Assembly (NCBI GenBank): GCA_947650365.1
Contig: OX393553.1
Coordinates: 67,827,216 to 67,891,215 of the forward strand
Direction: 5' to 3'
Length of the DNA stretch: 64,000 nt
DNA from: Chamaelirium japonicum
Lineage: Eukaryota; Streptophyta; Magnoliopsida; Liliales; Melanthiaceae
Shown: positions 20,201 to 26,108 of the stretch, piece by piece
How positions within the stretch are numbered: the first letter of the stretch is position 1
How the letters are laid out: the number at the start of each line of letters is the position of its first letter
Made by a program: the position numbers and the translations under genes
Notes under the pieces: generated by a model
Seen by the model: the letters and a program-made list of their open reading frames with translations, nothing else
The model's database searches: none
What the model was told of the DNA's origin: nothing

Positions 20201-23200
20201 TGTTGGACTTAAACCACAGTGTTGAGAATTTCGGTTTGGATATGGATTGGGCGAAAAGCTTAACGGTTTGGTTGGTTGGCTCGGTTTGGGTTTGGCTGTT
20301 TTGGCCTGGAAATATTAAAAAAATAGCAAAACGCAGGAATTGAAGCCTGATTCAGCTGATTCAGGTTTGATTAAGTCGTTTCTGACCCTATTAACCCTAT
20401 TTGGGCTTGTCGGCTGATTCAAAGTGATTTGGCGTTGTCAGCCGAACTGGATCCGGACCAAAGAGAACCGTCGAACCAAATTCGGCTAGGTGCATATTTC
20501 CAGTTTGAAGTTGTTTCGGTTTGGATCAGCAAAAAATCCATTTTGATTTTCCAGTGCGGTTTTGTTCGGACGATCTCTAGGCATGAAAAATTACAAAGAG
20601 TCCAGAAACTTATTTTAAGATAAAAGGATTTGTGAAGCACTACATGATGGTCATATGTTCTATACCTTTTTCAGATCCATTTGGTTATTCTCTATAATGT
20701 ATTTGTTTATTTTCTGCAAGATTCCTGATCTGATTTGGCAGTACTATTTCTAATTTCATTATGGACTTCAGTTTTGTTTTTAAATCATTATTGAGAAGTT
20801 ACTATTATGCACCTTTTCTTCACTGCTTTTGTTTATATTATTTCACCGGATCCTTCTTTTAGGAAGTTTATTATTTTTTGTGCAATTACTTGGTCAATGG
20901 TAACTTTGCATCTAGTAGTGTGACTTGTCTTTATTTGCATGTAGTTGTCCCAAGATTTGCAAGAATCGGTTTCGGGGTTGTCATTGTGCTAAGAGCCAAT
21001 GCCGAAGCCGCCAATGCCCTTGCTTTGCTGCTGATAGGGAGTGTGACCCTGATGTTTGTAGAAATTGCTGGGTTGGGTATGTTTATAGATTGCTTCTCTC
21101 ATTCCATCTGCACCCTTGTTTTTCCAGCTTTGTACTTGGTTTGAGAAATTATCGTTTTTTATGGCAACTTTTGTTTTTGTCGCACAATTATTATTTCAGT
21201 AGATAATAGAACCTATATATGTATATCTCAGTTCTTTATTTGTTTTAATCCCTTACAGCTGTGGTGATGGTAGTTTAGGAATCCCCATTCAAAGAGGAGA
21301 TAATTATGAATGCAGAAATATGAAGCTTCTCCTCAAACAACAACAAAGGGTAAACATCTCACTAATTTGTTCTTGAGTATGAACAATTTTTATTCTGAGA
21401 ATAATTTTATTTTATGTTGGTAATGTGTTGAATTTGATTGAACATATAGAGGATAAAAAGAAAATCATTTCAACCATGGGCTAATCTTAACGTAGTCTTA
21501 TTTTGCAATTTTCAGCTTATGAAAAGCTAGTTAAGTTGTTTTGCAGCATTTTCAGCTGGTACAAATTTTGTATTTATGGCATGCATACAATAAGCTAATA
21601 GGTTATTGACAACTTAAATATCATGAAGACAGCTAGCTAGGCTGGGGTTGTGCACTTCATTAGGCTGCCTCACTATTTTCTATATTGTAATACTTTTCTT
21701 AACCTACCTAGCTAACATGCATGCGATAACACATTTGGCTGCCTATCATCATCGAACTAGCAGTCTCTAGTCCCTCATACAAAGAGAATGAAAGGCCCAT
21801 CCATTACAGACTCACAATCTTGGTAATCCTAAAGCTCAACTTCACTTTTCCAAAAAAGTAAATCTCGTGGGTTGGGCTTATTATGTTTATGTATGTATAT
21901 GAGTCATTTCTCAACTGATCGTTGTTTATAATTCTATTAGAATGGTATTTGTGGTTTTTTTTTTTTACTTTAGAATGACTTGGTTGAGTTGCACCTGCCT
22001 GAGCTCCATCCATTATTTAGTCATCAAGTTGCTAATCTATAAAAGGTCAAAATTTTAAGTTTCAGATACAGTTTGAGTTACCTTGGAACCAAAGTGACTT
22101 ACACAAGATTTTTTCAGCCACAAGTGTCCGAAACACTAGAAAAATATATGTAGCGCAAAGGAGAATTGCCCTAAACTGGTTCAAGTTTACTAAGAAATGT
22201 TGCAAAACTTCCGAAACTGGACAAAACCCTTATGATTAGATTTCAATACATAAATGCATCTGAAACATTACTGACAGAAAGTAATCCAAAATGACTGAGG
22301 TTGTGCTGAAACTAGTCCAAGTTACTTTTGGGTGTTTTTCACATCATGCAGACTTTTACAGTTTTACCCATACACTATCTCATTGATTAACTTTATTCTT
22401 GTAAAGTTTTGGTTCCTAAGAGTTATGCAGTCAAAGTCGGTAGTTGGCACTTGGCACATAGTCGGCCAAGGCCCAACTAGGACTAATCGGGACTAGTCTG
22501 CCAAAAATTATTCTAACCCCTCCTCCCATCCTAAACTTATATGATATATGTACTAGCATAAATGTTAAACAAATATATGATACTAGTCGGCCAATATCAA
22601 TAAGTAACAAATGTCAATTATAAAGTACAAATTATAAAGTCAATCAACTGTCAAAGTAATTAACATCATGTAACATACTAGCATAAATATAATCTCAAAG
22701 AAATTAACATCAAGTACAATAATGCCATACTTTTAGAAAAAGAACATAATGTCATAATCCAGTCTATCCAGACAACTTCGACAAGTAGTAATGTAACATA
22801 AGTTCATGACACATCCATCCTAAAAAACACAAAATATATACCACGTCATAGAAACATAGTTGTGGGAATTTGGTGGTTCTTTACAGCGGAAACATATCTC
22901 CAACTAGAGGGTGTGTGCAAAATATATACCACGTCATACATAACAATTCTCCAAGATATAAAAACGAGTAAAAGAAAACAATCACAGATCACACGGATGT
23001 AACATTGTTCACCCGAATTAGTTCTAATCCACAGACGGTGGAGTATGAGATTTCTTCTATTAACACCAACAAGAACAGACTTACAAAACTTTCACAAATA
23101 ACCTAGGATGACAAGACGATTCACGAAGAACATATGAACGAAAACCGAGACAGAATTCCTGATGCCTCGCTTGCGATTGCTCGCCGTTCTGGCTCTCGGT

Positions 23201-26108: not shown

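Follow-up and report, generated by a model that had tools for sequence, protein, structure and literature searches.

Pack-MULEs carry fragments of host genes between inverted arms of 100-500 bp (PMC3310237; PMC6446971), and single-copy Pack-TIRs of animals are chimeras that arose when gaps were filled, independently of transposition (Tan et al., 2021, PMC8277862). In plants, filler DNA is formed at double-strand breaks by synthesis-dependent strand annealing, with fillers of 1-123 bp at rice transposon excision sites (PMC4423477), and synthesis-dependent end joining (SD-MMEJ) employs direct or inverted repeats (PMC7407515). A narrow literature search yielded no account of an inverted solo LTR combined with a gene fragment via break repair or template switching, and a second narrow search on Pack-TIR gene capture with terminal inverted repeats returned nothing, neither of which proves absence from print. 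In the present study a locus of Chamaelirium japonicum was analyzed, which is probably an old promoter duplicate made by repair, to which an LTR end was added by fold-back copying; a single instance was found, and it would be a Pack-TIR look-alike rather than a mobile unit.

The window, i.e. the whole stretch of 64,000 nucleotides under analysis, comprises positions 67827216-67891215 of contig OX393553.1 from the species' own genome of 1.52 Gb. The unit in question lies in an intron of an E(z)-type histone methyltransferase gene, with CXC exons before it and SET exons after it, and the same window holds a caffeoyl-CoA O-methyltransferase gene (CCoAOMT). In window coordinates, the features are:

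20922-21083, plus strand: CXC exon region of the E(z)-type host gene
22424-22833, plus strand: left flank, the first part of a dispersed repeat, cut at 22833
22830-22850, minus strand: 21-bp filler, identical to the LTR-end interior at 22918-22938
22855-23159, minus strand: left arm (L), copied from a Copia LTR 3' (U5) end, inverted and truncated, with the flank ACTAT and G
23157-23212, minus strand: start of CCoAOMT exon 1 (18 codons and 2 bases), overlapping L by 2 bp (CC)
23213-24300, minus strand: copied CCoAOMT 5' UTR and promoter with two palindromic dispersed repeats that are also in the native promoter
24302-24701, plus strand: right arm (R), 3' part of a Copia LTR, with family homology from about 24297-24314
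24702-24706, plus strand: ACTAT, a non-LTR flank common to L, R and N and in no other sampled copy
25818-26102, plus strand: SET exon region of the E(z)-type host gene
34757-35741, minus strand: native CCoAOMT, last exon 34757-35179, coding part of exon 1 35643-35741
36083-37909, plus strand: stretch of the native promoter that is missing from the copy
38979-39369, plus strand: N, native single LTR 3' part with ACTAT (39365-39369), upstream of CCoAOMT

The exon positions of the host gene were taken from motifs, which place a further exon at about 21314 and SET exons from 25513 onward. Its protein has EZH1 and EZH2 as best relatives in the PDB, and by similarity the gene is an E(z)-type SET-domain gene, CLF or its paralogue SWN; the intron had originally been assigned to CLF. 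Two further open frames on the minus strand of the window encode 1049 aa with the copia domains RVT_2, rve, SH3_retrovirus and gag_pre-integrs (5226-8372) and 444 aa with a DDE_Tnp_4 domain, a transposase-type endonuclease (58253-59584).

The arms of the unit, L (22855-23159) and R (24400-24707), are mutually inverted, with 85.1% identity over 303 positions between 22855-23154 and 24405-24707, and align also as two ungapped pieces at 84% and 89%. L comprises 300 of at least about 400 bp of the LTR, stops within it and meets exon 1 with the 2-bp overlap; in R, family alignments stop at about 24699 and the terminal CA is found at 24700-24701. A third arm copy, N (39055-39369), is direct to R over 39063-39369 (82.6%). 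Enclosed by L and R are 18 codons of CCoAOMT exon 1, the 5' UTR and the promoter, colinear with 35686-39369 in the following blocks of copy and native sequence: 23157-23230 with 35686-35759 (89%), 23218-23398 with 35816-35997 (87%), 23459-24226 with 37894-38665 (77%) and 24290-24346 with 38971-39027 (84%), after which R corresponds to N. The original prediction, that inverted arms surround the first codons and promoter of CCoAOMT colinear with an intact gene in the window, is thereby borne out, as is its claim of a single arm copy beside that gene: at E 0.05 the window gives L, R and N plus fragments of about 20 bp, and no arm on the far side of CCoAOMT. Two palindromic dispersed repeats (23496-23686 and 23711-23961) are present in the promoters of donor and copy and also elsewhere in the genome.

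The native gene encodes a caffeoyl-CoA O-methyltransferase (Methyltransf_3, E 1.7e-57; best PDB relative 1sui, E 3.7e-83). On another contig, two CCoAOMT paralogues agree with the exon-1 part of the unit at 50 of 56 bases, almost as well as the native gene with 51 of 56, and exon 1 alone therefore cannot name the donor. These paralogues are situated about 37 kb apart, and both have exon 1 in frame, with 31 of 33 residues matching. The whole promoter block of the unit (q605-1372) and R with ACTAT have matches at the native locus only, among the 40 of 4010 candidates scored; elsewhere in the genome, matches are limited to the two dispersed repeats that the block contains. To judge from promoter block and LTR with flank, then, the donor is the CCoAOMT locus of this window, as had been claimed. 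The stretch of about 1.8 kb that the copy lacks (36083-37909) was most simply inserted into the native promoter after copying, because it resembles dispersed repeats towards either end (36083-36273 and 37037-37909), though mostly not in the middle. Within N, a tandem duplication at 39044-39106 consists of identical 29-bp copies 34 bp apart and is lacking in R, and a repeat at 39399-39731, which starts 30 bp past N, is 77% like a stretch of another genomic locus (L031).

In the genome the arms match a dispersed family across about 400 bp, longer than the inverted part. Copies of this family occur as direct-repeat pairs (L009, L010, L011, L015) with ends reading ..CCCAACA, and at 9 of 22 pattern-found ends the final CA runs directly into sequence at most 4 of 12 bases off TGGTATCAGAGC (8 of these at most 3 off), which we take to be the tRNA-iMet primer binding site; 333 of 20,000 random stretches of the window do as well. 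The remaining pattern-found ends continue into varied sequence, and N has no primer site behind its LTR end. At L015 a copia gag piece (Retrotran_gag_2, E 4.7e-12) is enclosed by the LTR pair, and at L074 a copia reverse transcriptase piece (RVT_2, E 3.1e-22) lies upstream of the LTR. Direct-repeat pairs, primer-like site and copia gag and RVT_2 together identify the arms as the 3' (U5) ends of LTRs from a Copia family, not as terminal inverted repeats (TIRs) of a transposon. Four family loci (L009, L010, L012, L015) were inspected for a 5-bp target-site duplication of the LTR, and none gave an exact match. N has no recognisable 5' LTR border: family homology stops near 38979, there is no ACTAT-TG upstream, and one candidate with a single mismatch is located at 38383. 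L014 holds another inverted pair of these LTR 3' ends (2006-2369 and 2755-3139, 385 bp apart).

Directly after the final CA of the LTR, N continues with ACTATA and R as well as L (on the reverse strand) with ACTATG. ACTAT was detected neither at the other 21 ends from the pattern scan nor in the end blocks of 23 family copies, two sets that overlap. Most simply, it would be the genomic flank of one LTR insertion, from which it would follow that the copying of R and L from the locus took place with the LTR already there, and that L, R and N most likely all descend from this single insertion.

With regard to the order of the three copies, K2P distances are 0.162 (se 0.025) for L-R, 0.175 (0.027) for R-N and 0.242 (0.033) for L-N; L and R are nominally closer to each other than either is to N, as had been expected, yet the L-R and R-N distances overlap within error. 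A 9-bp deletion is common to L and R and absent from N and from all 23 family copies. Shared derived changes, polarised by the family, number four for L and R, two for R and N and none for L and N, with 17 further informative columns unclear in polarisation (7, 4 and 6). A clade of L and R is recovered with support of 84.8/98 (flank columns removed) and one of L, R and N with 95.6/99; the AU test rejects neither of the alternative orders (p 0.16 and 0.19). L was thus probably copied from R rather than from N, while topology tests keep all three orders and gene conversion from arm to arm could imitate the grouping of L with R. The original prediction had a second, inverted terminus gained at the donor before the unit moved, which would make R closest to N; the best tree and the 9-bp deletion unite L with R instead, with the same AU values for the other orders.

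The left border of the unit is ragged. Of the dispersed repeat in the left flank, the first 410 bp are present, and many of the matches listed end at query positions 1528-1538, while the repeat runs on past the cut point in all six fetched copies (read by eye); its remainder has no match in the window, as judged from four of these six. The 21-bp filler overlaps this repeat by a 4-bp microhomology, CAAA, and its exact match of 21 bp was not approached when the flank was block-shuffled 500 times, the longest match then being 14 bp. Short overlaps such as the CC at exon 1 can be explained by chance. As target-site duplication the borders offer at best 4/8, 4/9, 5/10 and 5/11 matches, values that random borders reach in 791, 890, 672 and 758 of 1000 cases. 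The border repeat GAAA measures 4 bp (4/5 with the next base) and is equalled at length 5 by 264 of 1000 random borders; the best exact border repeat in a 20 by 20 grid is also 4 bp, and at least 4 bp are attained by 268 of 400 random border pairs, so that chance suffices for GAAA. Searches of the 1.52-Gb genome revealed neither a second copy of the exon and promoter unit (among the 40 of 4010 candidates that were scored) nor a paralogous intron that would represent the empty site (40 of 4454 candidates scored, mostly repeats).

Cut-off flank repeat, overlaps CC and CAAA, 21-bp filler, the truncation of L and the failure to find a second copy are marks of templated repair. We consider it likely, with appreciable doubt, that the unit is a repair-made copy of promoter and LTR to which an inverted LTR end was added. 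The copy has the same orientation as the donor, is about 12.5-14.7 kb away from it and spans exon 1, promoter, LTR and ACTAT in this order; the left arm repeats the final 300 bp of the LTR in inverted orientation, with the same ACTAT flank. The proposed events would begin with an old Copia LTR (N) already upstream of CCoAOMT. Double-strand-break repair or replication template switching would then copy exon 1, promoter, LTR and ACTAT into the intron, with no transposase involved, candidate routes being synthesis-dependent strand annealing or joining of the polymerase-theta type. The 3' end within the copied exon 1 would fold back or invade the LTR end R, and 300 bp would be copied outward from R, past the LTR and into ACTATG, before a jump recopied 21 bp and joined the resected flank via CAAA. 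L may have been made in the same repair or later. The unit itself, which has no recognisable transposon termini, probably never moved as such.

This repair reading finds its nearest parallels in the systems named above. Like the Pack-TIRs of Tan et al. (2021, PMC8277862), the unit is a single-copy chimera of gene fragment and inverted terminus with microhomology of a few bases at the breakpoints and signs of template switching; in those elements, however, a pre-existing TIR transposon gets filled, whereas none is seen here, the inverted ends going back to one LTR copy that was carried along with gene sequence and then copied in inverted orientation. With plant filler DNA it shares foreign copied segments, flank deletion and nearby direct or inverted repeats at the junction (PMC4423477; PMC7407515), but compared with the rice fillers of 1-123 bp (PMC4423477) the copy of about 1.55 kb plus an inverted piece of 300 bp is large. 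Against repair speaks the fact that homology between copy and donor stops within 5-6 bp of the LTR end, as at a true terminus, for which repair gives no special reason beyond a possible microhomology, ACTAT. At 15-25% divergence, moreover, the ragged left flank could be explained by later deletions.

Of the other explanations, tandem duplication fares best, and we regard it as unlikely. A segment of 12-15 kb, from the 3' part of the host gene through the CCoAOMT promoter and LTR, would have been duplicated and joined at ACTAT, most of the first copy would then have been deleted, and L and the 21-bp piece would be filler from the repair of that deletion. Nearly the same end structure as by repair is expected, and direct orientation of donor and copy on the same chromosome, an L that appears younger than the split of R and N, and the loss of flank sequence at the left border agree with it. 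Yet two large events are needed, the intron sequences on the two sides of the unit show no match to each other at E below 0.1, and to the left (18001-22854) no convincing remnant of 24708-35685 is present, one stretch of 101 bp at 78% and others of at most 37 bp being all that was recovered.

A Pack-TIR or Pack-MULE, as originally proposed, is in our view highly improbable. Under this explanation the arms would be TIRs recognised by a transposase, the gene part would have been captured and the unit would have jumped into the intron. In its favour are long inverted arms around a fragment of a host gene (here CCoAOMT exon 1 and promoter), GAAA at both borders and copy homology that, in either arm, reaches nearly to the LTR end and stops there. 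In its inverted arms around a gene fragment the unit does resemble Pack-MULEs (PMC3310237; PMC6446971), but it departs from them in its LTR-derived arms, in the lack of a target-site duplication of 8-11 bp above chance and in that no copy was found elsewhere. The arm relatives examined are LTRs of a Copia family with primer-like site and copia genes, not members of a DNA-transposon family; the arm ends contain ACTAT, which is missing from the sampled family copies; and the search for a second unit was negative among the 40 of 4010 candidates scored. Nor does the notion of a clean mobile insertion into the intron fit a left flank composed of a cut-off repeat and 21 bp of filler. Two independent LTR insertions in opposite orientation, flanking an older promoter duplicate by chance, are exceedingly improbable: the family is dispersed and one other inverted pair exists (L014), but L has ACTATG in common with R and ACTAT with N, belongs to the clade of L, R and N (95.6/99), and breaks off towards the interior of the unit, where exon 1 begins. 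Retrotransposition of a read-through transcript by way of its LTRs was set aside by reasoning, since the outcome would be direct instead of inverted LTRs and no genomic ACTAT.

For the plant itself, the biological effect of this old relic within an intron is probably small. The case illustrates how a repair product can be told apart from a gene-capturing transposon: by the 5-bp flank outside the repeat, the true repeat family of the arms and the lack of a target-site duplication. Tentatively, and with more doubt than confidence, we suggest that gene fragments can acquire long inverted termini with no TIR transposon involved, when an LTR end is copied by fold-back in the course of repair, and that such pseudo-TIRs may recur, as the second inverted pair at L014 hints, and contaminate Pack-TIR catalogues. 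Pack-type elements called solely from long inverted repeats around gene fragments may hence include look-alikes.
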